From assembly GCA_041228335.1 (NCBI GenBank), contig CP166130.1, positions 768,638 through 832,637 of the forward strand: DNA of 64,000 nt. Direction: 5' to 3'. Below are positions 20,724-39,422 of the stretch, in pieces. How positions within the stretch are numbered: the first letter of the stretch is position 1; each line of letters begins with the position of its first letter. This DNA comes from Alphaproteobacteria bacterium LSUCC0684. Lineage in GTDB: Bacteria; Pseudomonadota; Alphaproteobacteria; Puniceispirillales; UBA1172. Position numbers and translations under genes: made by a program. The notes under the pieces are model-generated. The model searched no databases. It was given only the letters and a program-made list of their open reading frames with translations, and was not told the DNA's origin.

Positions 20724-20740
20724 ACCGGCTCTAGGCCGGT
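20724..20740. terminator. Short hairpin at the convergent end of the adhesin and agmatinase genes
   Basis: ACCGGC / GCCGGT stem around the agmatinase stop codon, in the 57-base convergent spacer. It is weak, with no U-run. Confidence 0.35.
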
Positions 20741-23117: not shown

Positions 23118-24116
23118 CTATCCCTTTGCCAGGAGACGCCGTCGCCGTTCCCGGAAGGCTGAATGGGAGCTTTCCGTTCCATCATGGAAGGAGCCGAACC
23201 ATTTATCCCATGGCATTTCCAGATTGCCGTAATTGCAGTCAAAATAGCGGTGATGCATCTGGTGATGAAAGGTGCCGAGCGCCAGATGCTTCTTGTCCTT
23301 CATCAGCAAGGCTTCATAACCTGTATGGGATGTTGCGGCGGTCAGGGACTGATGCTGCATATGGAAAAGGATATGAACAGGGCTTGAGGGCAGAATGAAA
23401 TGGATCAGGATTGAAGAGAAGAAAATCACATGCTCGACGGGATGCATCGAAAGCCCGGACCAGGGGCCGATATTGGTGTTGCGGTGATGCAGTGCATGCG
23501 CCAGCCGATAGAGCGGCGGCCAGTGAAGCCAGCGATGCACCCAGTAGAAATGAAACGAAATCCAGATCGGGGTCAGCAGAAACAGAAGAACGAACCACAA
23601 GGGGTTGTCTGCCCATAAGAGAACAGGCGTGTATCCGTTGCCCATGGCCCAGAACATCAGCACTTCATAGAAGGTCCAGACAGTAACGCCGCTTACCAGC
23701 GTCCAGAAGACATTATCGGCAAACTGGCTGTTGAACGAAAATAGCTTCTTCATGTCCGATAGATCACGCGTGTCATAGCGCAGCCTGTCACCCTGTCTTT
23801 TCCGGCCATAGAAATAGAGATGCAGCCCGCCCGCCACCGCAATCATCAGCACAAGATTCCGGATATAGAGAAGCGCGATCCAGTCAGGGGAAAGTGTTGC
23901 CGTCACTTCAAGAGACGGCTGGAAGAATATCCACGACAGAAGGCTGATGAGGATCAGGATCGACCGCTCGGTCACGACCAGCCATTGCCGGGCGGTCCAG
24001 CGCAGAATGGCGCTGAGATCAAGGGGCAAGGAAAAGAGAGGGGATACGCCGATAGGTACCGGCGGGACATGATTCCATTTTCCAGCAAAACCGGTTTTGT
24101 CCTTCTCCTCTTTCAT
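23118..24116 (-). CDS. Fatty acid hydroxylase / sterol desaturase family membrane protein
   Basis: 332 residues with about four membrane helices and the conserved histidine clusters of the di-iron FA-hydroxylase family: HFYWVHRWLHW (near 198), HALHHRN (near 217) and HHQMHHRYF (near 292). It would use O2 to hydroxylate or desaturate a lipid tail in the inner membrane. It starts 84 bases after the proW stop and 136 bases before the aminotransferase, all on the minus strand, so it may be the fourth gene of the betaine transport transcript. The lipid substrate is unknown. Confidence 0.88.
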   Translation of the reverse strand: MKEEKDKTGFAGKWNHVPPVPIGVSPLFSLPLDLSAILRWTARQWLVVTERSILILISLLSWIFFQPSLEVTATLSPDWIALLYIRNLVLMIAVAGGLHLYFYGRKRQGDRLRYDTRDLSDMKKLFSFNSQFADNVFWTLVSGVTVWTFYEVLMFWAMGNGYTPVLLWADNPLWFVLLFLLTPIWISFHFYWVHRWLHWPPLYRLAHALHHRNTNIGPWSGLSMHPVEHVIFFSSILIHFILPSSPVHILFHMQHQSLTAATSHTGYEALLMKDKKHLALGTFHHQMHHRYFDCNYGNLEMPWDKWFGSFHDGTESSHSAFRERRRRLLAKG

Positions 24117-24199: not shown

Positions 24200-25750
24200 C
24201 TAGCGTTTTCTATACGCTCCTTGCGCCACTCGGTCGATGACCATGGCGCAGAAAAGGATCGCAAGCCCGCCGAGCAACCCTTGCCCCTTGGCGGCGTATT
24301 GCAATGCTTCAAGGATCAGTGCACCCAGGCCTTCCGCTCCGATCAGCGAGGCAATCACCACCATGGAAAGGCTCATCAGGATCGTCTGGTTGATTCCGGT
24401 CATGATCGATGGCATGGCCAGCGGCAATTCCACGTTCCAGAGCAGTTGACGGCGTGAACAGCCAAACGCCAGCGCTGCTTCCTTGGTGGTTTCAGGCACG
24501 CCGCGCATACCGAGCGCGGTCAGGCGGATCACCGGCGGCATGGCAAAGATCAACGTTGCCAGAACCCCCGGAGGCTTGCCGGTGCCGAAGAAGGCGATGA
24601 TCGGGATGAGATAGACAAAAGCCGGCATGGTCTGCATGAAATCCAGCACGGGTTCAGCTGTTCTGTAGGCGCGCTGGCTTTTGCCAAACCAGATCCCAAG
24701 CGGGATGCCGAAGAGGATGCACAGAAACGCCCCCGTGCCGATCAGCGCAACGGTGATCATGGAAATTTCCCACAATCCCATGAAGGCGAGATAGGCAAGC
24801 GCTGCGGCGGTGAAAATAGCAACCCTTACCCCGGCAAGACGGAAAGCGGCCACCACGATCACGACCATCACCACCGGCCAGGGGGTGCCGATGAGAAGGA
24901 TTTCAATACTGTCAAGAACCGTCCGGATCATATGGGTTATGCCATCAAAGACACCGCCAAATCGATCGGCAAGCCAGTCAAACCCGTCATCGCCATAGGC
25001 CGAAAGAATGGTGAAATATTCCTTGCCGATAGGGAATTCGGTCATGGGCAGGTTATCCCCCAGCACGCCGCCGGTGAAACCCGACAAGGCTTCATCGGTC
25101 TTCACCACCGTGAAACGGATCAGCGTCAGCGGCAGGATACAGATGACAAGCACTATTCCCCAGATGGCTCCCTTGATGCTTGTGCCAGCCTGGATTCTGG
25201 GGTTGGAGCGCCATTTGAGATACTGCCGCTCATAGGCATGATTGGCGTAGAAACCTTCAAGAAGCTTGACCGCCAAAAGCAAGAGGAGGCCGGTGACAAG
25301 CACCGTCGTGGCCTGAGATGCCGCTTCCTGGGCCTCCAGCAAGGCGGTTTCGGCCGCTTTTTTGAGGTTATTGGCAATCTTGAGTTTGCTTTCCGCGCCC
25401 GCGGCATCGCCCGCGGCCAGCAATTCGGCTGCCTGCGATTCACGTTTCGCAATATTCGTGGCCAGTCTTTCGTAGCGCTCAAGTTTGTCGCCGCCAAGTT
25501 CCCCCCATAATCCGCGCCCTACCTGCACGAGTGCAAACATTTCCAGCACGAGAAAGATCCAGAAAAATCCCCAGATACCGCGCATCGCTCCCCATAACGG
25601 GCCAAAGAGCGCGGCCATGCTGTTCCAGGTGAAAACAAATCCTTCCGCTTCCTGAATGCGGGTAAACTCGCGGGCGTAGAAATCGGTCTGGCTTACGGCA
25701 AATGTGTCAATCGAAGCTGAGAGATTCTGCTTGTCCACGGGTTCGGTCAT
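24200..25750 (-). CDS. proW: Glycine betaine/proline-type ABC permease (ProW-like) with N-terminal DUF2628-like extension
   Basis: 516 residues, well over the 280-350 of ordinary ProW. The C-terminal 200 residues are the standard permease domain, with the EAA loop ALAFGCSRRQLLWNVELPLA. Residues about 45-80 hold a first membrane hairpin (LFGPLWGAMRGIWGFFWIFL), 88-148 a charged, alanine-rich helix likely to be a coiled coil, 149-165 another membrane helix, and 166-180 GFYANHAYERQYLKW, which resembles the end of DUF2628-type domains. It overlaps proV by 4 bases (ATGA). It imports betaine or a related quaternary amine with ProV and ProX. Confidence 0.9.
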   Translation of the reverse strand: MTEPVDKQNLSASIDTFAVSQTDFYAREFTRIQEAEGFVFTWNSMAALFGPLWGAMRGIWGFFWIFLVLEMFALVQVGRGLWGELGGDKLERYERLATNIAKRESQAAELLAAGDAAGAESKLKIANNLKKAAETALLEAQEAASQATTVLVTGLLLLLAVKLLEGFYANHAYERQYLKWRSNPRIQAGTSIKGAIWGIVLVICILPLTLIRFTVVKTDEALSGFTGGVLGDNLPMTEFPIGKEYFTILSAYGDDGFDWLADRFGGVFDGITHMIRTVLDSIEILLIGTPWPVVMVVIVVAAFRLAGVRVAIFTAAALAYLAFMGLWEISMITVALIGTGAFLCILFGIPLGIWFGKSQRAYRTAEPVLDFMQTMPAFVYLIPIIAFFGTGKPPGVLATLIFAMPPVIRLTALGMRGVPETTKEAALAFGCSRRQLLWNVELPLAMPSIMTGINQTILMSLSMVVIASLIGAEGLGALILEALQYAAKGQGLLGGLAILFCAMVIDRVAQGAYRKR

Positions 25751-26808
25751 GCTTTGCCTCCCTGAATTCCCTTGAGCAGGGTTGTCTTGTCGACCACGCC
25801 GATATCTTTTCCTTTATCATCCTGAATGACGATGGGATGCGTGGTGGTGGCCGAAATATCAATCAACTCATCCAGGCTGGCCGAATGGCTTGCTCTGGGT
25901 GCTGCATCCAGTTTCTGGCCCCGCGGGGGCTTGAATTCAGCAAGCGGCACCATGATCGAATGGGCGAAAACAAGTTTCAGTTTGGAAATGCCTTCGACAA
26001 AATCACGCACGTAATCATCGGCAGGTTGGGTCACGATTTCCTCAGGTGTGCCGATCTGCACAATCCGGCCGTCCTTCATGATGGCGATGCGGTCCCCGAT
26101 GCGAATGGCTTCATCGAGATCATGGGTGATAAAAACCGTGGTCTTGTGGAGTTTCTGCGACAGTTCCATGAACTGGTCCTGCAACTGACGCCGGATCAGC
26201 GGGTCAAGGGCGGAAAAAGGCTCATCCATCAGGAGAACATCCGGGTCTGATGCCAGCGCCCGTGCGAGGCCGACACGCTGCTGCATGCCGCCTGAAAGCT
26301 CGCTCGGAAAGCGGTCTTCATACCCTTCGAGATTTACCATTGCAAGACAGCGCTGGGAGACGTCCCACCTTTTGGCTTTCGACTCACCCCTGATCTGAAG
26401 CGGGAAGGCGACATTGTCCCGGACCGTGCGATGGGGGAGCAGGGCCATATGCTGAAAAACCATGCCGATTTCCCGTGCCCGCATGGCCCGAAGGTCCGCA
26501 TCATTGAGCGCCAGCATATCCCGGCCAAGCACATGGATGCGGCCAGCGGTTGGTTCGATCAGCCGGTTAAGATGCCGGACCATCGTCGATTTGCCGGAGC
26601 CGGAAAGCCCCATGACGCAGAAGACTTCGCCTTTCCTGACGGAAAAGGAGCAGTCCGCAATGCCGACCACACAGCCGAATTCAGCCAGCACGTCATTTTT
26701 GGAAAGATTGCGTTCCTTGATCGCGGCCATCGCTTCATCGGCATTATGGCCAAAAATCTTCCATACGTTTTCAAGAACGATCATATCGTTGTGGGTTGCT
26801 GGCTGCAT
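25747..26808 (-). CDS. proV: Glycine betaine/proline-type ABC ATPase (ProV-like)
   Basis: 353 residues: Walker A GLSGSGKST, signature LSGGMQQR and Walker B LLMDEPFSALDP. After the nucleotide-binding domain, residues about 280-350 form a CBS-like regulatory tail (HPIVIQDDKGKDIGVVDKTT), known in this family to sense ionic strength or c-di-AMP. GGGGGGAA precedes ATG 26808. The protein would power ProW; the 4-base overlap with proW argues for coupled translation. Confidence 0.92.
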   Translation of the reverse strand: MQPATHNDMIVLENVWKIFGHNADEAMAAIKERNLSKNDVLAEFGCVVGIADCSFSVRKGEVFCVMGLSGSGKSTMVRHLNRLIEPTAGRIHVLGRDMLALNDADLRAMRAREIGMVFQHMALLPHRTVRDNVAFPLQIRGESKAKRWDVSQRCLAMVNLEGYEDRFPSELSGGMQQRVGLARALASDPDVLLMDEPFSALDPLIRRQLQDQFMELSQKLHKTTVFITHDLDEAIRIGDRIAIMKDGRIVQIGTPEEIVTQPADDYVRDFVEGISKLKLVFAHSIMVPLAEFKPPRGQKLDAAPRASHSASLDELIDISATTTHPIVIQDDKGKDIGVVDKTTLLKGIQGGKA

Positions 26809-26943: not shown

Positions 26944-27903
26944 TTATTTCAGCCAGCTGTCCACGGCATCGCCGTTCTTGCTGACCCAGTCCTTGGCAAA
27001 GGCTGCCGGATCCTGTTTTTCCACAACAACCGCATAGGTCATCTGGGAAATCGTATCCGTGTCAAACTTTGCATTACCCAGCAGTTTGGCTGCTTCCGGG
27101 TGGCTGGATTCCAGGTTTGCCGCGTAATGGATATGCAGATACGCCGTATCCCATGCAACGCCTGCCTCGGAGACTTCAAGCCAGTCTGCGCCATCGGTAG
27201 GCTGCTTGACATTCCACTTGGCGGGATCATGTTTCGGCTCTTTCAGGATGACCAGCTCATGCAGGGCAAACATGTGGTGCGGCGTGTAGCAGAAGAAAAC
27301 AATGTTCTTGTTGCCGGCAACAGCGGCATCGACTTCTGCAAGTGCCAGGGACTCATCCATTTCCTTGAGCTGCATGGTTTCATTATAGCCATAGGACTTG
27401 GCACGGATTTTCTCAACATTGGTTGAAGCCCAGCCGGCTGCGCCGATCCAGATCTCGCCCTTGCCGTCGCCATCGGTGTCAAAATTCTTGGCCATGTCAG
27501 GGTTGGAAAGCTGGGACAGATCGGTAATGCCGATGCGATCTGCGGTTCCCTTGGTCACGCACATCGCCTGGTCACCAGCAACGCCATTGGGGTTAATCCG
27601 GACGGTCTTGTTTTCCTTCACGTATTTGTTATGCAGGTTGGTCTGGTTCGGCAGCCACACTTCGGGATGCACGTGCATGGAGCCGGCATCCATGGCTTCG
27701 AAAACCACGGGGTTGGTGCCGTTCTGCAGTTCGACTTCAAGGCCAAGGTTGTCTTCAAGCGCAACCTTCAGCACATGCGCGGTCACTCGAACCGAGGGCC
27801 AGTTCGGCACACCGATCACGACATCCGCAGCAAAAGCCGCAGGAGCAAGCAGCGCAGAGCATACCGCCCCGGCCAGAATATTTTTGGTAATGGTTTTAAT
27901 CAT
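26944..27903 (-). CDS. proX: Glycine betaine/proline-type periplasmic binding protein (ProX-like)
   Basis: 319 residues with signal peptide MIKTITKNILAGAVCSALLA and cleavage expected after AFA, mature start ADVVIGVPNWPSV. MHVHPEVWLPNQ and later tryptophans are typical of OpuAC-type binding proteins, whose aromatic box holds the quaternary ammonium. First gene of the proXVW cassette; the 177-base spacer upstream carries its promoter and the terminator of the mttB-like gene. Confidence 0.9.
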   Translation of the reverse strand: MIKTITKNILAGAVCSALLAPAAFAADVVIGVPNWPSVRVTAHVLKVALEDNLGLEVELQNGTNPVVFEAMDAGSMHVHPEVWLPNQTNLHNKYVKENKTVRINPNGVAGDQAMCVTKGTADRIGITDLSQLSNPDMAKNFDTDGDGKGEIWIGAAGWASTNVEKIRAKSYGYNETMQLKEMDESLALAEVDAAVAGNKNIVFFCYTPHHMFALHELVILKEPKHDPAKWNVKQPTDGADWLEVSEAGVAWDTAYLHIHYAANLESSHPEAAKLLGNAKFDTDTISQMTYAVVVEKQDPAAFAKDWVSKNGDAVDSWLK

Positions 27904-28051: not shown

Positions 28052-28079
28052 ATAAAATAATCCCTCCCTCGGCAGGGAT
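28052..28079 (-). terminator. Rho-independent terminator of the mttB-like gene
   Basis: On the minus strand ATCCCT-N8-AGGGAT is followed by TTATTTTATC. It begins one or two bases after the mttB stop codon and separates that gene from proX. Confidence 0.6.
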
Positions 28080-28080
28080 C

Positions 28081-29604
28081 TTACAAATAAATTTTGAATT
28101 TTTCCTTAATTTTAGTGGCGCATTTCGTGTCCAGATATTCCGGGTGATACTGTGCCAGAATTTCCCGGGCCCGCTGGTTGGCGTTCTGCCAGATCGTCAT
28201 CCGGCCGGTTTCATCCCAGGTGACAGGGGGGTCGCGATTCGCAAGCACGGGATAGACATAATCTCGTTCCATTGCGGCAATTGTCTGGTCCTGGCCGAGG
28301 AAATGGCCATCGCCGAGAATGGCATGTTCAATATGTTCAAGCGCAATGGTGTCGTCGTTGACTTCAATGCCGCGAAGGGTTCGATAGATGGCGCTGTGCA
28401 TGTCGTTATCCAGCAGAAATGCTTCAAAAGAGGCGCCTAGAAGGGCCGCGGTCATCCCGGAGCTTTCATAGATGAGATTTCCTCCCGCCAGCCCGGCGGC
28501 AAGCGCGGTTATTCCCTTTTCTGCTCCATATTGCGCATCGATGGCCTTGGCGTCGGTCATTGATGACGCCACGCCCGAGGGAAGCCCCAAAGCATTGCTG
28601 AGCTGGGCCGAGGCGGCATTGAGCAAAGCCGTTTCACCGCCGCCGCCAGAAAAGGCACCGGTGCGCAGGTCAATCACCAGAGGCCAGTTTGAAAAAACCA
28701 TCGGATAGCCCGGGCGTATGAGATTGACCATCAGAAGGCTTGCAAGCGTTTCGGCAAGTGACTGAACCAGAAAACCGGCAAGCGTAGCAGGTGCCGTGGC
28801 GCCAGCCTGGGCGGCGGTGATGCAGGATAAAGGGATATTATGTTCAATACAGGCATAGGTGACGTCCACCGCATCCTCGCCGAAACGCATCGGCGAGATG
28901 ACCGGGCTGATATGTGCCTTGACGAAGGGACGCGCGGAAAACCTGCCGTCGCCGCCTTCGGCGATATCAAGCATCGCCACGATCGGCGCGACATGTTCGG
29001 CAAGGGTGAAGGAAGTGGCAACGGGCTTTGTTGTTCCGCAAAGAAGAGCATAGACGGTATTCACATCAAGATCGAAATTATCCGGAATATCCGTGGCAAC
29101 GCAGCAACGCGTAAACCAACTCACGTTTTGGAGTTGATCCTGCAGCCGGGTGAAATCGTAAAGATCCTGCAAGGTGGAAGGGCGATAGGTGCCGGTTTCA
29201 AGATCAAGCGTCTGCACCGCGGCGCCACCGGTGCCGAAATGCACGCTATCCCCGCCCACTTCAATCGATCGGTCCGGATCTCGGCCATGCAGAACAAACT
29301 TTCTGGCCGCAAGCGCTATCGTATCTTCGGTCAGGGAGAGGGGAAAGGTGATGCGCCCATCGTCCCGTCTTTCCGCGCCTTTACTGAGGAAGAGTTCAGC
29401 CAGCCTAGGCGGCACCTCTCCCATACCGAGAGTATCAAGGAGATTGAGCGCGGCGGTGATGATCTGGTCAATATCCGCATCACTGAGCGGCCTGTACTGC
29501 CCGCCCTTCTGCCCAGGCGGTGCCGGGTTGGGAGTCTTGCCTTTGCTGGCGCGCAGCTTTTGTCTTGAGCTTCGCCCGCCGCTTCGTTGTGGTCTTTTCT
29601 CCAT
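28081..29604 (-). CDS. MttB/MtgB-superfamily methyltransferase (non-pyrrolysine)
   Basis: 507 residues of the trimethylamine methyltransferase superfamily (COG5598): basic N-terminus, then a TIM-barrel with FGTGGAAVQTLDLETGTYRP, DLYDFTRLQDQLQNVSWFT and a C-terminal segment ending in repeated basic residues. The frame has no internal amber codon, so it is the non-pyrrolysine branch, which includes the glycine betaine:corrinoid methyltransferase MtgB. It sits upstream of proXVW and divergent from a dimethylglycine-dehydrogenase-like gene, pointing to betaine demethylation. No corrinoid protein or reactivase is nearby. Confidence 0.88.
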   Translation of the reverse strand: MEKRPQRSGGRSSRQKLRASKGKTPNPAPPGQKGGQYRPLSDADIDQIITAALNLLDTLGMGEVPPRLAELFLSKGAERRDDGRITFPLSLTEDTIALAARKFVLHGRDPDRSIEVGGDSVHFGTGGAAVQTLDLETGTYRPSTLQDLYDFTRLQDQLQNVSWFTRCCVATDIPDNFDLDVNTVYALLCGTTKPVATSFTLAEHVAPIVAMLDIAEGGDGRFSARPFVKAHISPVISPMRFGEDAVDVTYACIEHNIPLSCITAAQAGATAPATLAGFLVQSLAETLASLLMVNLIRPGYPMVFSNWPLVIDLRTGAFSGGGGETALLNAASAQLSNALGLPSGVASSMTDAKAIDAQYGAEKGITALAAGLAGGNLIYESSGMTAALLGASFEAFLLDNDMHSAIYRTLRGIEVNDDTIALEHIEHAILGDGHFLGQDQTIAAMERDYVYPVLANRDPPVTWDETGRMTIWQNANQRAREILAQYHPEYLDTKCATKIKEKFKIYL

Positions 29605-29725
29605 GCCTTTATCCCGGCAAGATTAATCAGGAAGTTTAATTCAATATCGTCAACCTGCATCAATTTCATTGTAACTTTGGTTTCAGACCGTGCAAGATAG
29701 CAAGGTGGAAAAGGGGGCCGGGCAA

Positions 29726-32146
29726 ATGAAATCCTCAGCACGCGTGGTTGTTATCGGCGGTGGTATTGCGGGGTGTTCAACCTTGTATCACCTGACCCGG
29801 GAAGGCTGGACAGATGTGGTGCTGGTTGAGCGCGATGAACTGACCTCCGGAACCACCTGGCATTCGGCCGCGCAGGTCACCAATTTCGGCATGAATCAGA
29901 CGATGGTCGGGCTGAAAAGCCATTCCATCGCGCTTTACAAGGAACTGGCCGCGGATCCCGATTATCCGATCAACTATCATCACGCCGATGGCGGGATCAG
30001 GCTTGCCAATACCGAAAGCCAGATGGAAGGGTATCGTCACTTTGCTTCCATGGCGCGGGGGATGGGGGTGAATTTCGAGGTAATCGACGCGGCCGAATGC
30101 GCGCGCCGCCATCCACTCATTTCCACCGATAATCTGCTTGGCGGGCTGTGGGATCCGCTCGATGGAGATATAGACCCAGCCCAGCTTTGCCAGGCGCTGG
30201 CCCGCCGCGCCCGCAACGCCGGAGCCGAAATCTACCGTCATACCCCGGTCACTGCCCTGACGCAGTTGAAGGACGATACATGGGTGGTTCACACCACCAA
30301 AGGTGATATCGATTGCGAAATCGTCGTCAATGCCTGCGGCTATCGGGTAAATGAGGTCGGTGCCATGATGGGGGTGCACCATCCGGTCATGTCCATGGAG
30401 CATCAGTATTTTGTCACCGAACCCATCCAGGGGATCATTGATGCCGGCCACCGGATGCCACTCCTGCGCTGCCCGATCTCGGATTATTACTGCCGACAGG
30501 AAAAACAGGGTCTTCTGCTCGGGTTTTATGAGCAGAACTGCAAGACATGGGGGATGGACGGCATTGATCCCAATTTTGTCAACGCCCTCTGCCCCGATGA
30601 TCTTGACCGGGTGACCGATGTGCTGGAAGGGGCGTTTGCACGCATGCCTGCACTGATGGATGCCGGTATTCATACCGTGGTGAACGGCCCTATCACCTAT
30701 ACGATCGATGGAACGCCTCTTGTCGGTCCTGTGCCGGGCCGGCGTAACGCCTTCTGCATCATTGGTCTGCGTGCCGGTGTCGGGGAAGGCGGCGGCCATG
30801 GCTGGCTGCTGGCCCAGATGATTGCCCATGGCGAGGCCTGCTACGATACCTGGTGTCTTGATCCTAGAAGGTTTACTGGTCACGGCAATGTCGAGTTGAC
30901 CGCGCTCAAGGCTGTTGAGGATTATCAGAATGAATTCCGGTTTCATTTCCCCCATGAGCACCGGCCAGCGGGACGACCGATAAAGACCACGCCGCTGACA
31001 CCTGTCCTGGCGTCGGAAGGGGCGGAGTTTGGCGTCGTCAATGGCTGGGAGCGGATAGCCTATATAAAACCATCGGATGATTTCAGCGAAACCCACAGTT
31101 TCCGTTTTAATGAGACCTTTGATGTGGTGGCCGAGGAGGTCAACGCTGTCCATACAACTGTTGGCCTGACCGAAGTCAGCGGTTTCAACCGTATCGAAAT
31201 CACCGGCGCCGGGATTCATGACTGGCTTGATGGTCTTTTCTGCGGCCGCGTCAGACGTGATATCGGCCGGGTCGGTCTTGGCTATATGCTCAATCATCAC
31301 GGCAACGTCAAGGCTGAGGCTACGATTGCCAATATCAGCGAAGGACGCCTTTGGTACGGGTCCGCGGCGGCGGCGGAATATCATGACATGGAATGGCTCA
31401 AGGCGCATCTGCCGGCCGATGGTTCGATCCGTCTCAAGGGGTTGACAAACGATATGACCACGCTTGTGCTGGCGGGCCCGAAAGCCCGGGCGGTGCTTGA
31501 TGATGTCACCCGGATGGACTGTTCGGCCAAAGCATTTGGCTGGCTTCAGGTGAGAGAAGGCTTTGTCGGTATCGCCCCTGCGGTGATCATGTCGGTGAGT
31601 TTTTCCGGCGAAGAGGCGTTTGAAATCCATCTGCCAAATAACCAGCTTTATGCCGGTTACCTCGCGCTCAGAAAAGCGGGCGAGGCCCATGGCTTGCGTC
31701 TCTTCGGCTCAATGGCGATTGAATCGATGCGGCTGGAAAAGGGATACCTGCACTGGAAAGCGGATCTGATCACCGAGTTTAATCCTTTTGAGACAGGCCT
31801 CGGCCGTTTTGTGGATATGGGCAAGGACTTTATCGGCAAGGCAGCGCTCGAGAAGATGATGGATCAAGGTCCGCGCCGAAATCTCGTCACCCTTGCGTTT
31901 GATTGCACCCATGCGCCGAGCCATGGCGGCGCGTCGGTCAGCAAGGATGGGCAGGTGATCGGAACCGTCACCTCGGCGGCCTGGGGATATCGGGTTGGGA
32001 TGAACCTTGCCCTTGCCTTTGTTGATCCCGATCAGGCGGAGACTGGCACCCGGCTGGAAGTTGATGTGCTCGGGATACCAGAGGCGGCAACCGTGATTGC
32101 CCCGAGCCCTTATGATCCTGAAAACAGGCAGCTCAAGCATACATAA
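29726..32146 (+). CDS. Dimethylglycine/sarcosine dehydrogenase-type flavoprotein with aminomethyltransferase domain
   Basis: 806 residues. The N-terminal FAD domain (VVVIGGGIAGCSTLYHLTRE) contains SGTTWHSAAQV, whose His is the covalent FAD site in dimethylglycine and sarcosine dehydrogenases. From about residue 430 the protein is GcvT-like (folate-binding barrel, EAFEIHLPNNQLY, GLGRFVDMGKDFIGKAAL). The enzyme would remove N-methyl groups and pass the one-carbon unit to tetrahydrofolate. ATG 29726 with GGGGG upstream is preferred over a start 12 codons earlier. Divergent from the mttB-like gene by 121 bases, it completes betaine to dimethylglycine to sarcosine on paper. Confidence 0.9.
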   Translation: MKSSARVVVIGGGIAGCSTLYHLTREGWTDVVLVERDELTSGTTWHSAAQVTNFGMNQTMVGLKSHSIALYKELAADPDYPINYHHADGGIRLANTESQMEGYRHFASMARGMGVNFEVIDAAECARRHPLISTDNLLGGLWDPLDGDIDPAQLCQALARRARNAGAEIYRHTPVTALTQLKDDTWVVHTTKGDIDCEIVVNACGYRVNEVGAMMGVHHPVMSMEHQYFVTEPIQGIIDAGHRMPLLRCPISDYYCRQEKQGLLLGFYEQNCKTWGMDGIDPNFVNALCPDDLDRVTDVLEGAFARMPALMDAGIHTVVNGPITYTIDGTPLVGPVPGRRNAFCIIGLRAGVGEGGGHGWLLAQMIAHGEACYDTWCLDPRRFTGHGNVELTALKAVEDYQNEFRFHFPHEHRPAGRPIKTTPLTPVLASEGAEFGVVNGWERIAYIKPSDDFSETHSFRFNETFDVVAEEVNAVHTTVGLTEVSGFNRIEITGAGIHDWLDGLFCGRVRRDIGRVGLGYMLNHHGNVKAEATIANISEGRLWYGSAAAAEYHDMEWLKAHLPADGSIRLKGLTNDMTTLVLAGPKARAVLDDVTRMDCSAKAFGWLQVREGFVGIAPAVIMSVSFSGEEAFEIHLPNNQLYAGYLALRKAGEAHGLRLFGSMAIESMRLEKGYLHWKADLITEFNPFETGLGRFVDMGKDFIGKAALEKMMDQGPRRNLVTLAFDCTHAPSHGGASVSKDGQVIGTVTSAAWGYRVGMNLALAFVDPDQAETGTRLEVDVLGIPEAATVIAPSPYDPENRQLKHT

Positions 32147-32209: not shown

Positions 32210-33145
32210 TTATGCCGCAGGTCCCGGATAAGGATGGGTCTTGATCCAATGATTTGCGATATCGATGCGCCGGGCGATCCAGGCCTTGTCATGGGACATG
32301 ACGTGATCAAGAAACTTGACAAGCCCCCGGAAACGCCCCGGCCGGCCGATCAGCCGGCAATGAAGACCGATCGACATCATCTTCGGCGTTATTGCCCCTT
32401 CTTCATAGAGCACATCAAAAGCATCGATCAGATAGCGGGCAAACTGCTCGCCTGTATGAAATCCTTGCGCGGTGGCAAAGCGCATGTCGTTTGTATCCAG
32501 CGTGTAGGGAACGACCAGATGCGGGCGATCCAACATCCGGGACCAGAAAGGCAGATCATCCGAATAGTCATCGGCATCGTAGACAAAGCCACCTTCCTCG
32601 GCCACGAGAGCGCGGGTATTTTCGCTGGTCCTTCCGGTATACCAGCCAAGAGGACGCTCCCCGCAAATTGCCGAGTGAATGGCGATGGCTTCCTGCATAT
32701 GGGCGCGTTCGGTGGCCATATCCATGCCGTGATAATTGATCCACCGCAATCCGTGGGAGGCAATCTCATGACCGTCTTTGAGGGCCTGTTCGATCACCGC
32801 CGGGTGGCGCTGCATTGCCATTGCCACCCCGAACACCGTGAGCGGCACACCACGCGAGCGGAACAGATCAAGGATACGCCAGACCCCGGCGCGTGAGCCA
32901 TATTCATAGATGGATTCCATGGACATGTGACGTGCGCCTTCAAAGGGCAATGCACCGATGATCTCGGAAAGAAAGGCTTCCGAGGCTGCATCGCCATGGA
33001 GGATTGCGTTCTCGCCACCTTCTTCGTAATTGAGCACAAACTGCACCGCGACCCGGGCCCCGCCAGGCCAGGTGGCCTGCGGCGGGTTCTGGCCGTATCC
33101 GACCATGTCCCGGGGGTAGTTGTCGTTCAGTTCAGTCTCATGCAT
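32210..33145 (-). CDS. PuuE-type allantoinase / polysaccharide-deacetylase-fold amidase
   Basis: 311 residues, close to the length of PuuE, the cofactor-independent allantoinase with a polysaccharide-deacetylase (NodB) barrel. YPRDMVGYGQNPPQATWPGG and FVLNYEEGGENAILHGD at the N-terminus and DGHEIASHGLRWINY (HGxR) are the family's marks. It would open a hydantoin-type ring (allantoin to allantoate). Last gene of the transporter-racemase-GntR operon, which supports a ureide or hydantoin substrate. Other cyclic amides are possible. Confidence 0.88.
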   Translation of the reverse strand: MHETELNDNYPRDMVGYGQNPPQATWPGGARVAVQFVLNYEEGGENAILHGDAASEAFLSEIIGALPFEGARHMSMESIYEYGSRAGVWRILDLFRSRGVPLTVFGVAMAMQRHPAVIEQALKDGHEIASHGLRWINYHGMDMATERAHMQEAIAIHSAICGERPLGWYTGRTSENTRALVAEEGGFVYDADDYSDDLPFWSRMLDRPHLVVPYTLDTNDMRFATAQGFHTGEQFARYLIDAFDVLYEEGAITPKMMSIGLHCRLIGRPGRFRGLVKFLDHVMSHDKAWIARRIDIANHWIKTHPYPGPAA

Positions 33146-33169
33146 GGCACAACTCCGGAGGAATGGATT

Positions 33170-33859
33170 TCAGAAACCGAGTGTTTCATGGAGGGGCAGG
33201 GGGCGCGTATCCGGGCGATCATCCAGATCAAGGCCTGAGACCAGATCCTCAAGATGATCTTCCATCAGCTGACCTGCCCTGGCCTCATTACCTGAAGCTA
33301 TGGCCTGGACCAGCGCATCATGGGCGTTGCATTCACACATCGTATCCTGGCGCCGCCAGTAGAGCGACACAATCAGCGATGATCTTGATACCAGTTCTTC
33401 GACAATATTGGTCAGAATAGAGTGGTTGGCGATACGCGCTATCTTGATATGAAATCCGGCGGATAAAGTGATGGCGTCGCTGTTGTTTCCAGCCTTGAGG
33501 GCCTCGTTTTCCTTGAGGAGGTGCCGTGAAAGCTCTTCAATATCATCGGCGGTTGCCCTGGATGAGGCCAGCCCGGCAATATAAGGCTCAACCAGTGAGC
33601 GCGCTTCAAACACATCCCGGGCCTCTCTCTTGGTTGGTTTGGAGACATGAACGCCACGATTGGGCAGGTGAGTAAGCAGACCTTCATGTGTAAGGGCCCT
33701 GAGCGCGGTGCGTATCACCGTGCGCCCCAGCCCATAAATGTTGCACAGTTCATCCTCGGCCAAGCGTGTACCTGGCGCCAGACGGTGCGAAATGATCGCC
33801 TCCTTAAGGTTTTCCATCACAGCTAACCAGGTTGGTTCATGTTTTCGCGCCGCTGTCAT
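33170..33859 (-). CDS. GntR-family regulator with FCD domain
   Basis: 229 residues. Residues 1-80 are the GntR winged helix (LAPGTRLAEDELCNIYGLGR, TVIRTALRALTHEGLL), and about 90-215 form an all-helical FCD effector domain with conserved histidines expected to bind a metal and carboxylate ligand (FHIKIARIANH). It lies between the racemase and the allantoinase genes on the same strand. A perfect TTGTATACAA palindrome of the FCD-operator type stands before the first gene of the operon (39423-39432), so it probably represses this operon until a ureide intermediate binds. Confidence 0.9.
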   Translation of the reverse strand: MTAARKHEPTWLAVMENLKEAIISHRLAPGTRLAEDELCNIYGLGRTVIRTALRALTHEGLLTHLPNRGVHVSKPTKREARDVFEARSLVEPYIAGLASSRATADDIEELSRHLLKENEALKAGNNSDAITLSAGFHIKIARIANHSILTNIVEELVSRSSLIVSLYWRRQDTMCECNAHDALVQAIASGNEARAGQLMEDHLEDLVSGLDLDDRPDTRPLPLHETLGF

Positions 33860-33890
33860 GACTAAAAAAATCCTCTTTAACCTCTGCTTA

Positions 33891-34604
33891 TCATGACGAG
33901 AATTTCATTCTTGGCCATGCATAGCCGCCAATCTTACTGTTTTCAAGTCCAAGTGCAACCATGGATTCAACCAGTCGAACAGCACAGGAAATTCCATCCA
34001 GTATCGGCACCTGATGCTCCTGGCCAAGATGGGCCGCAAGGTCAGACATGCCGGCACATCCCAGAACAATGGCTTCAGCCTTGTCCACTTCAATGGCATT
34101 GCGTATTTCGGTATTGATGCGCGCCAGGGCATCCCCGTTCCCTGTCTCGAGTTCAAGCACCGGGATATCACTTGCCCGCACGCCCGAACATCTGGCAGCA
34201 AGCCCGTATCGCACCAGATTATGTTCAAGCGCCGGCACCGACCGTGAAAGCGTGGTCACCACCCCGAATTTATTGGCGATCATCGAGGCCATATGATACG
34301 CCGCCTCGCCAATTCCCACCACCGGTGCCGCTGTTGCGCAGCGTGCTGCATCAAGTCCGGTATCATCAAAACAGGCGATGACGAACCCATCCGCTTTCGG
34401 AAAGGAACTGACAACCTCGAGCAGTCCTGCAAGGGACAGCGCCTCATCATAATATCCTTCGATGCTGACGGGGCCGTGCTCAGGGTTCAATACATTCAGA
34501 TCAAGCCGATCTCCCGCCGCTTCTGCGGCAACAACGCGTATGCGATCGGTCATGGCGGCGGTCGTATTCGGGTTGATCACCACGATTTCAGGCTTGCCGT
34601 CCAT
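33891..34604 (-). CDS. Asp/Glu/hydantoin racemase-family protein
   Basis: 237 residues, a full-length two-domain racemase. The two catalytic cysteines appear in ACFDDTGLDAARC (near residue 80) and VLGCAGMSDLA (near 180); the N-terminus IVVINPNTTAAMTDRI is typical of allantoin/hydantoin racemases. It would interconvert enantiomers of a 5-substituted hydantoin or allantoin so that the downstream ring-opening enzyme can use both. It starts 2 bases after the livF-like stop, so it is translated in the same operon. Confidence 0.9.
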   Translation of the reverse strand: MDGKPEIVVINPNTTAAMTDRIRVVAAEAAGDRLDLNVLNPEHGPVSIEGYYDEALSLAGLLEVVSSFPKADGFVIACFDDTGLDAARCATAAPVVGIGEAAYHMASMIANKFGVVTTLSRSVPALEHNLVRYGLAARCSGVRASDIPVLELETGNGDALARINTEIRNAIEVDKAEAIVLGCAGMSDLAAHLGQEHQVPILDGISCAVRLVESMVALGLENSKIGGYAWPRMKFSS

Positions 34605-34606
34605 CC

Positions 34607-35329
34607 CTAAATCTCCCCCCCGAGATACGCCGCCTTGATCCTTGGATCATCAAGGAGATCAGCGGATTTACCCTCTACCGCAACCGATCCTGTGGTAAGA
34701 GCATAGGCGCGGTTTGAAATGCTGAGTGCCATTTTAGAGTTCTGTTCCACCAGCAGAACCGACACATTCTCTTCACGATTGATCGAGATGATGGAACGGG
34801 CGATTTCCTGCACCAGTTTCGGGGCGATACCAAGCGATGGCTCATCAAGCAGAAGCAGGTTGGGCCTGGCCATCAGAGCCCGGCCGATAACCATCATCTG
34901 CTGCTCGCCGCCGCTCAATGTTCCGGCCATCTGTCCATAGCGTTCACGCAGGCGGGGAAAGCGGGTCAGCACGCTTTCGAGCGTATCCTTGATCCCGTCC
35001 TTGTCGGAGCGGCTGAAAGCCCCCATCAGGAGGTTGTCCTTCACGCTCATATAGGGGAAGACCCGCCGTCCTTCCGGTACCATGGCGATCCCTTTTTTCA
35101 CGATGGAGGCCGCATCATAGTCAAGCAGGCTTTCCTGCTTATAGGTGATGCTGCCGGATCGCGGACGGGCAAGGCCGGTAATGGCGCGCAGAATGGAGGA
35201 TTTGCCCGCGCCATTGGCCCCGATCAGGGCAACGGTCTCGCCAACATCCAGCCGGATGGAAACACCTTTCAGCGCATAGACATGGTCATAATAAAGTTCG
35301 ACATCTTCAAATTTCAGCAACGGTTCCAT
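34607..35329 (-). CDS. livF: Branched-chain amino acid/amide-type ABC ATPase (LivF-like)
   Basis: 240 residues: Walker A GANGAGKSS, signature LSGGEQQM, Walker B LLLLDEPSLGIAPKL, and SVLLVEQN, the LivF hallmark. Second ATPase of a HAAT-type importer; the cargo is inferred from the racemase and allantoinase genes to be a ureide, hydantoin or related amide rather than leucine. Confidence 0.93.
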   Translation of the reverse strand: MEPLLKFEDVELYYDHVYALKGVSIRLDVGETVALIGANGAGKSSILRAITGLARPRSGSITYKQESLLDYDAASIVKKGIAMVPEGRRVFPYMSVKDNLLMGAFSRSDKDGIKDTLESVLTRFPRLRERYGQMAGTLSGGEQQMMVIGRALMARPNLLLLDEPSLGIAPKLVQEIARSIISINREENVSVLLVEQNSKMALSISNRAYALTTGSVAVEGKSADLLDDPRIKAAYLGGEI

Positions 35330-35331
35330 CT

Positions 35332-36111
35332 CTAAAACCCTACCGCATCATCTTCACTGCCAAGGTATGCTTCGATAACCCTGGGATTGTTCTGAATTTC
35401 CGAAGGGGTACCTTCGGCGATCTTTTCCCCGAAATTGAGCACGACCAGCCGGTCCGAGATCTTCATCACTGCCGCCATGTCGTGCTCAACCAGAAGCACG
35501 GTTACGTCGCGGTCACGCACCCCGCGTACAAGTTCCACCATATGCATGGTTTCATCGTGGTTCATCCCTGCAAAAGGTTCATCCAGCAGGAGGAGTTTTG
35601 GCTTGGTTGCAAGACCGATCGCCATGCCGAGCGCCCGCAAATGACCCTGGGGCAGATTGCTGGCCAGTTCATTGCGGATATCATCCATGCCGAGGAAGGA
35701 GATAATGTCATCGGCGGATTTCCCGAAAGCGGCTTCATCCGCGATGGCCGCCGGCGTGCCGAGAAAAAACCCGAAAAGACCAGCGCTGGAGCTCAAGTGA
35801 TGTGAGACGATGATATTGTCGCGCACGGTCATGCTCTTGAATACGGTTGTTTCCTGAAATGTCCGCACCACGCCGAGTTTGGCGGCCTGATGCGGCGACA
35901 TGTTGGAGATTTTCCGCCCCTCGAACAGCACTTCGCCTGATGTGGTGCGCAGGAAGGAGGCGATCAGTTTGAAGAGGGTGGATTTGCCCGCCCCGTTCGG
36001 CCCGATCACCGACAGGATCTCATTCGTGTGGACAGAAAAACTGACATCCGAAACAGCGGTGAGGCCGCCGAATTTCTTGGTGAGGTTTCTGACTTCGAGG
36101 ATTGTTGTCAT
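35332..36111 (-). CDS. livG: Branched-chain amino acid/amide-type ABC ATPase (LivG-like)
   Basis: 259 residues: Walker A GPNGAGKST, Walker B LLLLDEPFAGMNHDE and the switch VLLVEHDM, all LivG-like. The ABC signature reads LPQGHLRALGMAIGL where most LivG proteins have LPYGQQRRLEIARAL, so Gln-Gln-Arg is lost. Stop codons bordering the gene are 2 and 8 bases from its neighbours. It pairs with LivF on LivHM. Confidence 0.9.
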   Translation of the reverse strand: MTTILEVRNLTKKFGGLTAVSDVSFSVHTNEILSVIGPNGAGKSTLFKLIASFLRTTSGEVLFEGRKISNMSPHQAAKLGVVRTFQETTVFKSMTVRDNIIVSHHLSSSAGLFGFFLGTPAAIADEAAFGKSADDIISFLGMDDIRNELASNLPQGHLRALGMAIGLATKPKLLLLDEPFAGMNHDETMHMVELVRGVRDRDVTVLLVEHDMAAVMKISDRLVVLNFGEKIAEGTPSEIQNNPRVIEAYLGSEDDAVGF

Positions 36112-36119
36112 GCCGGCTC

Positions 36120-37088
36120 CTAATTCTTCATCTTGCTGAAGATGCTCAAAAGCCCGTTGGGAAGGGTCAGCATCAGGAAAATGAGTAGCGAGGAATAGAT
36201 CAGGAGCTGGTATTCACCCGCGGTAAAGAGAAGATCCCAGCCAAAGTAGTTGACGAGCGTGCCCAGCATCGGCCCGAAGACATAGCCAAGCCCGCCAAGG
36301 AAACAGTTGAGCATGAAGTCAACGGAGTCCTTCACCGGAAAGCTTGCCGGGTAGATGGACTGCGAGATGCCCACGAAAATCGCTCCGGCCACCCCGCCCA
36401 TAAAGGAGGATATGGAAAAGGCGATAAGCCGGAGCTTGGCGATATTGACCCCGATGGAGGAGGCCAGTTCCTCGTTCTGCTGAAGGGATCGGCAAAGATG
36501 CCCGATCCTGGAATTGACCAGCCGATACATGCCCGCAAAGGTTATCAGCATCAGCACAACCGCGACATAGAAGAACCCGCGTTTGACATTCTCAAGCTCG
36601 GCGAAATCCGGGATCAGGGTCAGGCCGAACAGGCTGACCCCGCCCGGAAGCGGGATGGAGGAAATCCCCTTGGCGCCATTGGTGATGGGCAGCGCCAGAG
36701 CCGTAAGGCGGGCAACCTCGGTCATCACCAGCGTGACCATGGCAAAATACACCCCGCGCAGACGCAGGATGGGCAGGCCGACAAGCACCGCCACCAGAAT
36801 GCACATCAGCCCGGCAAGAGGGATCGTCAACCAGAACGATACGCCATATTTGACCACCAGAATGGCCGAAGTATATCCGCCGACAAGGGCAAAGGCCCCC
36901 TGGCCGATATTGATCCGCCCAATATAGAAGGTGAGCCAGACGCCGGCGCTCGCAATCGAAAGAAGGGCAACCGAAGTCAGCGTGTAATAAAGATCCCAGC
37001 GTCCGGATATCTCAATCAGATACGGCACGCCGAAAATGAGCAACAGCGCGAAGGCCAGGGCAGATATCTTTGCCTGCAATGTTAACAT
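36120..37088 (-). CDS. livM: HAAT-type ABC permease (LivM-like)
   Basis: About 322 residues with eight to ten membrane helices and the segment LRGVYFAMVTLVMTEVARL typical of LivM. ATG 37088 (MLTLQAKIS) with GGGAGA upstream is preferred over an in-frame start 8 codons earlier. EAA-like loop near residue 200 (NEELASSIGVNIAKLRLIAF). It forms the membrane channel with LivH. Confidence 0.9.
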   Translation of the reverse strand: MLTLQAKISALAFALLLIFGVPYLIEISGRWDLYYTLTSVALLSIASAGVWLTFYIGRINIGQGAFALVGGYTSAILVVKYGVSFWLTIPLAGLMCILVAVLVGLPILRLRGVYFAMVTLVMTEVARLTALALPITNGAKGISSIPLPGGVSLFGLTLIPDFAELENVKRGFFYVAVVLMLITFAGMYRLVNSRIGHLCRSLQQNEELASSIGVNIAKLRLIAFSISSFMGGVAGAIFVGISQSIYPASFPVKDSVDFMLNCFLGGLGYVFGPMLGTLVNYFGWDLLFTAGEYQLLIYSSLLIFLMLTLPNGLLSIFSKMKN

Positions 37089-37145
37089 GTTCCAATCTCC
37101 CGCCAGTTGCATCGCCGGCTCAAGCTGATCATTACCGGCATGATT

Positions 37146-38015
37146 CTACCCCCAGGGTTTGCCCATGAGGCCCTGGGGCCGGATGGCAAGAAACACCATG
37201 AGGCTGGCAAAAATGACCAGATAGGTGATATCGCCGAAATCCGACAGAACCGTTAGGCCGATGGATTCGAGCATGCCGAGGATGAAACCGCCCGCGATAG
37301 CGCCTGAAATCACCCCGGCGCCACCGATCATGACCATCATGAACGCCTTGATCGAGGTCGGCCCGCCCATGCCGAGGTTAACCCCGGTTATGCTGACGAG
37401 CAGTCCCCCCACAGTTCCGGCCAGCATCGCCGCAAGCGCGAAGCCGATCATCGAATACAATTCGACATTCACCCCCATCAGTTGGGCCGCCACCTTGTCC
37501 TGGGCAAGGGCACGCATCGCCCGCCCGGTTTTGGAATACTGCATATAGGTGATGAAAAGAACGATGAAAAGTACCGCAAGGCAGCCGATCAGAATCCGGT
37601 CGTAAGGCATGATGATGCGGAAATCCCAGTTGAAGACGCCATTGACGATCTTGGGAATACCCCGTTGTTTTTCACCAAACAGCAGGAGGATCAGCGCATC
37701 GAGGAAAAAGGCCACGCCAGCGGCCAGCAACATCGTGCTTTCTTCCCGCACGGATTTTCGGATCACCGGCCGGAAAAGGAATTTTTCAAGAATGGCCCCG
37801 ATGATGGCAAGAGACACACCGGCGCTGATCAGGGCCACAATATAGGGCATGCCAAGCTTGACCGAAACCGTGTAGGTCACGAATCCGCCGATGACATAAA
37901 GCTGTCCATGGGCGAAATTCAGCACATTCATCAAGGAGAAAATCAAGGTCAGGCCAAGCGCAATCAGCGCATATTGGGCGCCTAAGTATAATCCGTTGAC
38001 GATGATCTGTTCCAT
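37146..38015 (-). CDS. livH: HAAT-type ABC permease (LivH-like)
   Basis: 289 residues, eight hydrophobic helices, start MEQIIVNGLYLGAQYALIAL, the canonical LivH N-terminus. GGAG lies 8 bases upstream of ATG 38015; the longer open frame upstream runs through the intercistronic hairpins and is not supported. QDKVAAQLMGVNVELYSMIG is the LivH cytoplasmic loop. Confidence 0.92.
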   Translation of the reverse strand: MEQIIVNGLYLGAQYALIALGLTLIFSLMNVLNFAHGQLYVIGGFVTYTVSVKLGMPYIVALISAGVSLAIIGAILEKFLFRPVIRKSVREESTMLLAAGVAFFLDALILLLFGEKQRGIPKIVNGVFNWDFRIIMPYDRILIGCLAVLFIVLFITYMQYSKTGRAMRALAQDKVAAQLMGVNVELYSMIGFALAAMLAGTVGGLLVSITGVNLGMGGPTSIKAFMMVMIGGAGVISGAIAGGFILGMLESIGLTVLSDFGDITYLVIFASLMVFLAIRPQGLMGKPWG

Positions 38016-38040
38016 CTTGGGGCTCCAGAACATTTGGGTT

Positions 38041-38098
38041 GAAACAGATAGATGCTTTCTGTTTCGTGGTAAACCCCGGCCAGCGCAATGCACTGGCC
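38041..38098 (-). terminator. Intercistronic hairpins between livK and livH
   Basis: Two inverted repeats in the 102-base gap: GGCCAG-N9-CTGGCC (38078-38098), 20 bases after the binding-protein stop, and GAAACAG-N11-CTGTTTC (38041-38065). They could lower read-through into the permease genes. Confidence 0.5.
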
Positions 38099-38117
38099 AG
38101 GGCCAACTTGGGAGGAT

Positions 38118-39317
38118 TTAGTCGACTTCGGCAATGAACAGTGTTTCGAACGCACCGTTCCTGTATTCATTGACAACCATCGGCACGAAGATCTGACGCT
38201 TCTGGCCGAATGAACTGTTGCCAACATATTTCAGCTTGCTGTCGCCCTTCATGTAGATGTTGGGGACGGAAAGCGTATTGATGGTCTTCTTGAACTCATT
38301 GACATCATCGATGGCTTTCGGGTTTGCCTTCATGGTCTCAAGGATATACTCAAGCGCGTATACCTTGGTGTTGGATTCGTCATTGTACTCACCGAACATC
38401 TTGGTGTAGCGCGTGACGAATTCCTTCATCTTTTCGGAGGCAATTTCAGGTGTCGAGGCACCGCCGACGGAAATGAATCCGTTCGCCAGATCGCCGGCAC
38501 CTTCTTTCAGCACCGTCGCGTCCTGGGCGGTTTCCGTCGAAATCAGGCCCTGATAACCAAGCTCACGTGCTGAACGGATCAGCTGCGGGGCATTGGCTGG
38601 TGCCACGCCGGAAAGAACCAGCAGGTCCGGACGCTTTTGCAGAACCGGGGTCAGCACCGGGGTGAAGTCAGTAGTGTCGACCTGATAGGTCACGTTGCTT
38701 GAAACGACGTCAAGGCCAAGTGCCTTGGCGGCGGCAACCCCGCCATCACGCTGGCTCAGCGGGTCCGATTCATTGGCCGCGACAAAGGCAACTTTCTTCA
38801 CGCCCTTGTTGTCACGAAGGTACTTGTAGATGGCCGGACCGGACTGATAGTTTGCAATCATTCCGAGAACGGCGTTGGACGCCGGGGCGGTGTAGAGCTC
38901 TTTCGGGAAAGCATAGGGGAAATAGATGATATCGTTCTGCTCGGCGACAGGACGGACAGCAGCCGCGCCATCATCCACGTTTGGTCCAACCACATAATGA
39001 ATGCCTTCCTTGGCCATTTTTTCCATGCCGGCAATAGCCCGCTTCGGGTCTTTCTGGTCATCAAAGGTGACAATTTCCACATCATAAGTCGTGTTGCCGA
39101 TCTTGACACCGCCCATCTCATTGATCCATTCAGCCCGGGTCTGCATGGAGCGGACATTTGAAGTCCCCCAGGCGGCGGCCGGGCCGCTGGTCACGCCAAC
39201 AAAGCCGATTTTAAGGACTTCATTGGCAGCCTGTGCCGTCATGGCACTGAAGGCTACCCCGGCGGCGAGCGTTGCTGCTCCAGCCAGAGTTGTCAGTTTT
39301 CTCATATGTTCGCGCAT
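38118..39317 (-). CDS. livK: HAAT-type periplasmic binding protein (LivK/amide-binding-like)
   Basis: About 399 residues with a signal peptide (MRKLTTLAGAATLAAGVAFS, cleavage after AQA) and a two-lobed amino-acid/amide receptor fold (VLKIGFVGVTSGPAAAWGTS). Three ATGs lie close together; ATG 39317 is best placed after AAGGGAG. First gene of the operon, so its upstream region (39318-39536) carries the promoter and the GntR-type palindrome. The ligand is unknown; a ureide or hydantoin is suggested by the downstream enzymes. Confidence 0.9.
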   Translation of the reverse strand: MREHMRKLTTLAGAATLAAGVAFSAMTAQAANEVLKIGFVGVTSGPAAAWGTSNVRSMQTRAEWINEMGGVKIGNTTYDVEIVTFDDQKDPKRAIAGMEKMAKEGIHYVVGPNVDDGAAAVRPVAEQNDIIYFPYAFPKELYTAPASNAVLGMIANYQSGPAIYKYLRDNKGVKKVAFVAANESDPLSQRDGGVAAAKALGLDVVSSNVTYQVDTTDFTPVLTPVLQKRPDLLVLSGVAPANAPQLIRSARELGYQGLISTETAQDATVLKEGAGDLANGFISVGGASTPEIASEKMKEFVTRYTKMFGEYNDESNTKVYALEYILETMKANPKAIDDVNEFKKTINTLSVPNIYMKGDSKLKYVGNSSFGQKRQIFVPMVVNEYRNGAFETLFIAEVD

Positions 39318-39422
39318 TTTCATCTCCCTTTTGTTCGTGAAATGCCTGTGACAGTTCAACTTCATTATTTAAACAAAAATTGAATAGGATTCGTAAATGA
39401 TATGCAACAAGATTCTTTAATT

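Follow-up and report, generated by a model that had tools for sequence, protein, structure and literature searches.

Among the systems closest to the one described here is that of Ruegeria pomeroyi, for which a shared-carrier system (MtgBCDE) was described in 2025. Its corrinoid protein MtgC is general, serving MttB proteins as well as methionine synthesis, and a carrier unlinked to the methyltransferase is the norm (PMC12478193). Mutants in mtgC or mtgD lost both methionine synthesis and growth on glycine betaine, two PF06253 proteins are produced on betaine, and SAR116 was named as an mtgC carrier (PMC12478193). In Phaeobacter inhibens, the methionine synthase is split, and a reactivase resembling RamA accompanies it (PMC5764234). 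Here we analyzed a stretch of 64,000 nucleotides (the window) from Alphaproteobacteria bacterium LSUCC0684, corresponding to positions 768,638-832,637 of its complete 2,704,644-bp genome. Several of the closest relatives of this genome bear the SAR116 label. The window encodes a methyltransferase of the MttB family, divergent from a dimethylglycine-dehydrogenase-like (DMGDH-like) gene. With a probability of roughly three in four, we read this methyltransferase as one of nine substrate-specific clients of a shared, unlinked MtgC, with recruitment proposed to occur through a tail rich in Arg, and with the DMGDH-like enzyme performing the second step. The central features of the locus are the following:

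28081-29604, minus strand: MttB-superfamily (COG5598/PF06253) non-pyrrolysine methyltransferase of 507 amino acids (Pfam, AlphaFold2/Foldseek, tree), with a predicted role as quaternary-amine:MtgC corrinoid methyltransferase (PF06253, fold, clade)
29545-29604, minus strand: Arg-rich N-terminal tail, MttB residues 1-20 MEKRPQRSGGRSSRQKLRAS, candidate MtgC docking tag (conservation, predicted disorder)
28555-28563, minus strand: approximate codons of Ser348-Met349-Thr350 of the window MttB (phmmer and MAFFT alignments, clade alignment)
29690-32146, plus strand: DMGDH-like FAD/GcvT protein, divergent (DAO, FAO_M, GCV_T and GCV_T_C domains, match in PDB)

The original prediction placed a non-pyrrolysine MttB beside proXVW-type genes and divergent from a GcvT-fused dehydrogenase, and the open reading frames (ORFs), strands and coordinates are as it described. 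It also stated that the window holds no corrinoid carrier, reactivase or methyl-acceptor gene. Consistently, genome-wide profile searches for B12-binding, RACo, pterin-methyltransferase and S-methyltransferase domains gave matches exclusively outside the 64 kb. As it had suggested, we searched the full genome for homologues of the corrinoid protein and its methyltransferase, and we found both MtgC and MtgD, in an operon (mtgC-mtgD-metF2-ramA) at 1.8736-1.8787 Mb (1873578-1878674), about 1.08 Mb from the window. This operon encodes MtgC (241 amino acids, PF02607 and PF02310, with a DxHxxG motif), a small PF13769 protein, a MetF2-like protein, MtgD (PF00809) and RamA; MtgE is encoded apart from it, at 2.305 Mb. 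A search for B12 domains did not find MetH: the other domains above cutoff belong to a CmuA-like fusion and to a B12-binding protein that resembles methylmalonyl-CoA mutase. With MtgC, MtgD, MtgE and RamA encoded and MetH not found, the genome belongs with the MtgBCDE shared-corrinoid systems. This supports the suggestion of the original prediction that the carrier may be encoded elsewhere, and a system of an already known kind accounts for its absence from the window. The prediction had said that an obvious unlinked set of cognate corrinoid genes serving another substrate would count against it; this holds by half, as such a set exists but is general in the published system.

Sinorhizobium meliloti likewise has a gene for the small PF13769 (“virulence factor”) protein in its mtgC operon. 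In Terrarubrum flagellatum (L315:10251-12533), a PF13769 sequence is apparently fused to the N-terminus of a RamA that ends in RTRRRRAQ. The PF13769 protein may thus belong to the module that reactivates the corrinoid.

Across the order, we compared 43 genomes with a completeness of 90% or more and a contamination of 5% or less, matching the lists by eye. PF06253 and MtgC were both present in the same 37 of the 43 genomes and both absent from the other 6, although this co-occurrence is not independent evidence, since the six negatives appear to be one family. MttB copies ranged from 1 to 10 per genome, and MtgC was single in nearly all relatives; the CmuA-like fusion of the source genome, which also matches the MtgC query, is a different protein.

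The partners of MtgC share a second trait. In the source genome the N-termini of the MttBs are basic and mostly Arg-rich (enrichment p ~2e-8), and the C-termini of MtgE, MtgD and RamA are runs of the kind GRRGRRRR, RETRRRRRA and NARRRGRRRRD. In a sample of Alphaproteobacteria, C-terminal Arg tails were present in 29/30 RamA, 28/30 MtgD (two more have an internal run) and all 29 MtgE; Arg makes up 41-43% of the last 15 residues of these proteins, and Lys no more than 2%. The N-terminal tails of MttBs had a net charge of at least +3 in 111/111 related loci, mostly of the window clade, against a background of ~13% in the same loci by a looser criterion, probably inflated by spurious ORFs. The residue R11 of the window MttB tail is nearly invariant across both MttB clades described below, and the tail is predicted by AlphaFold2 to be disordered apart from a short helix (residues 11-19). 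In S. meliloti, we found tails on MtgB, MtgE and RamA, a weaker one on MtgD, and none on MetF2 or DUF1638.

MtgC itself has no Arg tail, and its first 40 residues carry a net charge of -11 to -17 in 30/30 proteins; its structural model is confident from about residue 20 onward. Acidity as a property unique to MtgC was partly rejected: over the aligned 40 residues other corrinoid proteins carry -2 to -9, compared with -8 for MtgC, and the distinct part is an extra N-terminal arm, with -9 over residues 13-31. Reactivases and pterin enzymes that work with other carriers were tailless. We did not find Arg tails on the UroD-corrinoid fusion, the RamA2 or the second pterin methyltransferase encoded in the CmuA-like operon of the source genome, nor in five MtgC-independent corrinoid/pterin/RamA operons in other Alphaproteobacteria; in one genome (G298) the MtgC operon has tails and the second system has none. 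The literature we examined on MtgBCDE and on the split methionine synthase does not mention Arg tails, with the query for arginine-rich segments being limited, so the signature is apparently undescribed. From these sequences we lean, if only slightly, towards an alphaproteobacterial Arg-tail code, in which every methyl or electron partner of a lone MtgC would bear an Arg-rich disordered tail that docks on its acidic N-terminal arm, and unlinked plug-in donors could be added without duplicating the carrier.

Several observations weigh against these readings. The co-occurrence of MttB and MtgC is limited to few families and is phylogenetically confounded, and the criteria for tails were chosen after inspection of the data. 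An Arg-rich N-terminus also occurs on a MttB that has a linked corrinoid gene of its own (locus L301); restriction of the tail to MtgC clients is therefore imperfect. An alphaproteobacterial MttB from Mesorhizobium WSM1497 has no tail, although its start is possibly mis-called. The tail of the window MttB is weaker than that of most paralogs, with 4 Arg in the densest 12-mer, and other corrinoid proteins likewise have moderately acidic N-terminal domains.

Segments of this kind are also known outside methyl transfer: RNA is often bound by disordered segments rich in RG or RR. A role of the tails other than binding to MtgC, such as contact with nucleic acids or membranes, formation of condensates, or solubility, is thus possible, but we consider it doubtful. 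The tails occur at opposite termini of four kinds of protein that have MtgC as their common partner, and homologues that work independently of MtgC lack them, both in the source genome and in others.

The protein at 28081-29604 matches PF06253 over its full length with 351.8 bits (Pfam cutoff, 25), and falls far short of TIGR02369, the equivalog of pyrrolysine MttB (326 bits; cutoff, 525). It is not a pyrrolysine MttB: its ORF has no in-frame stop, and Met349, invariant in its clade, aligns with pyrrolysine 334 of MttB. The Tyr aligned to MttB Tyr364 is invariant in the clade as well, and so is a FGTG motif that resembles Phe109-Gly112 of MttB, a correspondence that relies on the motif and is about 3 residues off in the ungapped alignment. 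The structural roles of MttB Tyr364 and of Phe109-Gly112, at the rim of the corrinoid, have been described (PMC9842639). The AlphaFold2 model of the window MttB (predicted local distance difference test score, 90.9) aligned with structures 4YYC, 7XCL, 7XCN, 2QNE and 9YCE at query TM-scores (TMq) of 0.85-0.87 in Foldseek, and shares its fold with MttB in the MttB-MttC complex.

The source genome has nine PF06253 genes, and the paralogs fall in two groups. The window MttB and the paralogs at 210, 358 and 2,175 kb form one clade (support 100/100) that excludes MtgB and 4YYC. The identity of the window MttB is 28% to MtgB and 28% to pyrrolysine MttB, so it is no closer to the former. The comparison with MtgB made in the original prediction fits only in part: the window MttB does not group with characterized MtgB, and the MtgB-type member of this genome is the paralog at 1.848 Mb. 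This paralog groups with S. meliloti 4YYC/MtgB (4YYC has the same sequence as the MttB whose gene adjoins mtgC in S. meliloti), and it adjoins a DMGDH gene and a gene resembling the sarcosine oxidase alpha subunit.

A scan of bacterial and archaeal GTDB genomes gave 530 candidate loci for the window clade. Gene context was examined for the best 80 of them, mostly from Rhodobacterales with some Hyphomicrobiales and SAR116, with genes in relatives picked as the longest ORF plus tblastn. A divergent DMGDH-like gene was found in 79 of the 90 window-clade loci with room for it (5 genomes are counted twice, from two collections), often accompanied by a LysR gene. In the source genome, five of the nine MttB genes have a FAD-GcvT gene no more than 3 kb away, an arrangement reached in 0/20,000 random placements. 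Since an importer of the betaine type stands beside the MttB gene in only about 1/9 of window-clade loci, these numbers indicate that the functional pair is MttB with the DMGDH-like protein, not MttB with ProXVW. The closest PDB match of the DMGDH-like protein is mammalian dimethylglycine dehydrogenase (E 5e-145), and the true start of its gene may be the ATG at 29726. It is predicted to demethylate a tertiary amine and to yield 5,10-methylene-tetrahydrofolate. The best reading of the paired chemistry is that a quaternary amine is converted to a tertiary one via B12, and the tertiary amine to a secondary one via FAD and folate.

A betaine-type importer and a DMGDH-like neighbour would also be expected if the window MttB were a second glycine betaine demethylase, with the neighbour as the canonical dimethylglycine step, and the two PF06253 proteins of R. 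pomeroyi on betaine (PMC12478193) would agree with it. We regard this as improbable. The paralog at 1.848 Mb already fits the glycine betaine role, the window MttB shares 26% identity with it and carries Met in place of the Leu of MtgB, and the neighbours differ among relatives (carnitinyl-CoA dehydratase, CuyA/HisD-like proteins, ureohydrolase).

The genome also has a second, self-contained corrinoid system at 941087-945915, with the CmuA-like fusion of UroD and B12 domains (~944 kb), a pterin methyltransferase and RamA2. It is present and complete, and the window MttB might use it instead of MtgC; this is very unlikely, since the corrinoid domain of the fusion is already joined to a methyltransferase domain of its own, the partners in this system lack tails, and within the order the CmuA-like match to the MtgC query occurs in the source genome only, whereas window-type MttBs occur in many. 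Least probable of all is the idea of the original prediction that this clade uses another acceptor, which could be folate on the GcvT domain of the DMGDH-like protein, or homocysteine, with no corrinoid protein involved: the lack of a linked corrinoid gene, the tight pairing with a folate-binding GcvT protein and the distance of the clade from MtgB would fit it, but the shared-carrier system is present, MttB and MtgC occur without exception in the same 37 of 43 genomes, the fold is that of the corrinoid-dependent MttB and MtgB, the Tyr and the FGTG motif are invariant, and the Arg tail is like those on other MtgC partners.

We therefore return to a shared MtgC with many clients. The nine MttBs probably take methyl groups off quaternary amines of algal origin and pass them to a single B12 protein. 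The window MttB would bind a quaternary amine, most likely other than glycine betaine and possibly supplied by the adjacent ProXVW-type importer, and would transfer one methyl to Co(I)-MtgC. As suggested by homology and by the genetics of Ruegeria and Phaeobacter, MtgD would pass this methyl to tetrahydrofolate, MetF2 would oxidize it, RamA would re-reduce the corrinoid, and MtgE could also take methyl groups from MtgC, for methionine. The divergent DMGDH-like enzyme would then demethylate the dimethyl-amine left by the first step and trap the one-carbon unit on folate through its GcvT domain. We propose that Arg-rich disordered tails, N-terminal on the MttBs and C-terminal on MtgD, MtgE and RamA, bring clients whose genes lie apart from that of the carrier to the acidic N-terminal arm of MtgC; the class of substrate is likewise a proposal. 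If true, this would explain why a single B12 protein suffices for as many as ten unlinked demethylases and for methionine synthesis in abundant ocean bacteria, and it would provide a simple sequence signature to find further clients and to predict the methylated osmolytes that a cell can strip.

The remaining features around the MttB gene are the following:

28059-28080, minus strand: stem-loop resembling a terminator, immediately following the stop codon of the MttB gene (consensus scan alone)
26944-27903, minus strand: ProX/OpuAC-type quaternary-amine binding protein (PF04069, E 2e-56)
25747-26808, minus strand: ProV-type ATPase (TIGR01186, 353 bits, above cutoff)
24200-25750, minus strand: ProW-type permease with a long N-terminal region (PF00528; TIGR03416 below cutoff)
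23118-24116, minus strand: FA_hydroxylase-family membrane protein (PF04116)
20731-21714, minus strand: ureohydrolase of the agmatinase/arginase family (PF00491)

ProX, ProV and ProW match betaine/choline-type families, ProV alone above its cutoff and the others merely within the family. The original prediction had the MttB joined to ProXVW. The link is one of adjacency only: proX and the MttB gene are 177 bp apart with the stem-loop between them, and in most related loci the importer does not accompany the MttB gene. In the consensus scan, terminator-like stem-loops were mildly more numerous than in shuffled sequences. The FA_hydroxylase-family gene has copies 69-74% identical in SAR116-group loci, and lies beside MttB/ProW in some relatives. 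The ureohydrolase has copies 81-83% identical beside window-clade MttBs in two SAR116-group genomes and two Defluviimonas; a luciferase-like monooxygenase, a hydrolase and a thiamine pyrophosphate (TPP) enzyme are encoded close to several of the ureohydrolase/MttB loci (L140, L150, L108, L099).

We attempted to derive the substrate from neighbouring genes. Genes for carnitinyl-CoA dehydratase, for CuyA/HisD/racemase and for ureohydrolase with luciferase-like monooxygenase, as well as genes of kynureninase-like and protocatechuate-like type, recur in only part of the loci, and therefore point to no single substrate. Homarine was considered, and no usable gene cluster for it was found in the literature. 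Genes for HisD-like, amino-acid racemase and D-cysteine-desulfhydrase/CuyA-like proteins recur near window-clade MttBs of roseobacters (L089 1132-5321, L091 17204-19467, L155 11644-13544), which hints at a link to sulfonate or amino-acid betaines. Within the source genome, the MttB paralog in the region 1653560-1657103 adjoins an enzyme with TPP domains, which we take to resemble sulfoacetaldehyde acetyltransferase; this suggests a sulfonate betaine such as taurine betaine for that paralog. In another family of the order (L072-L076), MttBs 47% identical by eye adjoin succinate dehydrogenase genes, and longer stretches of these loci hold genes resembling protocatechuate dioxygenase, a CoA-transferase, a thiolase and a phosphonopyruvate-decarboxylase-like pair; the surroundings of these MttBs are thus of an aromatic kind.

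Elsewhere in the window, the region 32210-39365 encodes an allantoinase PuuE (above its NCBIfam cutoff), a GntR regulator, a protein of the Asp/Glu/hydantoin racemase family and a branched-chain-type ABC (ATP-binding cassette) transporter; we did not find a conserved link between this cluster and the MttB pair. A cadherin-like repeat protein of 1736 amino acids, with long near-identical repeats, is encoded at 15463-20673.

Compared with known systems, the window MttB shares with MtgB of Desulfitobacterium hafniense (2QNE, 9YCE) a PF06253 TIM barrel without pyrrolysine, at the TMq given above, but the two are 28% identical, and MtgB has Leu instead of Met at the pyrrolysine position; the D. hafniense protein has no N-terminal tail, since almost no residues precede its core. 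Methanosarcina barkeri pyrrolysine MttB with MttC (7XCL, 7XCN) resembles it in fold, in the Tyr aligned to Tyr364, in the FGTG motif and in a neighbouring but weakly supported tree position (90/82), and differs from it by having pyrrolysine in place of Met349 and by the same level of identity (28%). Mammalian dimethylglycine dehydrogenase (4P9S, 5L46) has the domain order of the DMGDH-like neighbour and resembles it along its full length, a likeness by sequence; unlike it, the neighbour shows conserved pairing with a MttB gene. The MtgBCDE system of R. pomeroyi, P. inhibens and S. meliloti has the same MtgC, MtgD, MetF2-like protein, RamA and MtgE; as in the source genome, where MetH was not found, its methyltransferase genes are unlinked or loosely linked to the carrier. 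Unlike in that system, the source genome has nine client MttBs, and the window methyltransferase, which falls in a clade distinct from that of MtgB, is paired with a DMGDH-like gene in divergent orientation. This largely uncharacterized clade, with its dedicated DMGDH-like partner, is new.

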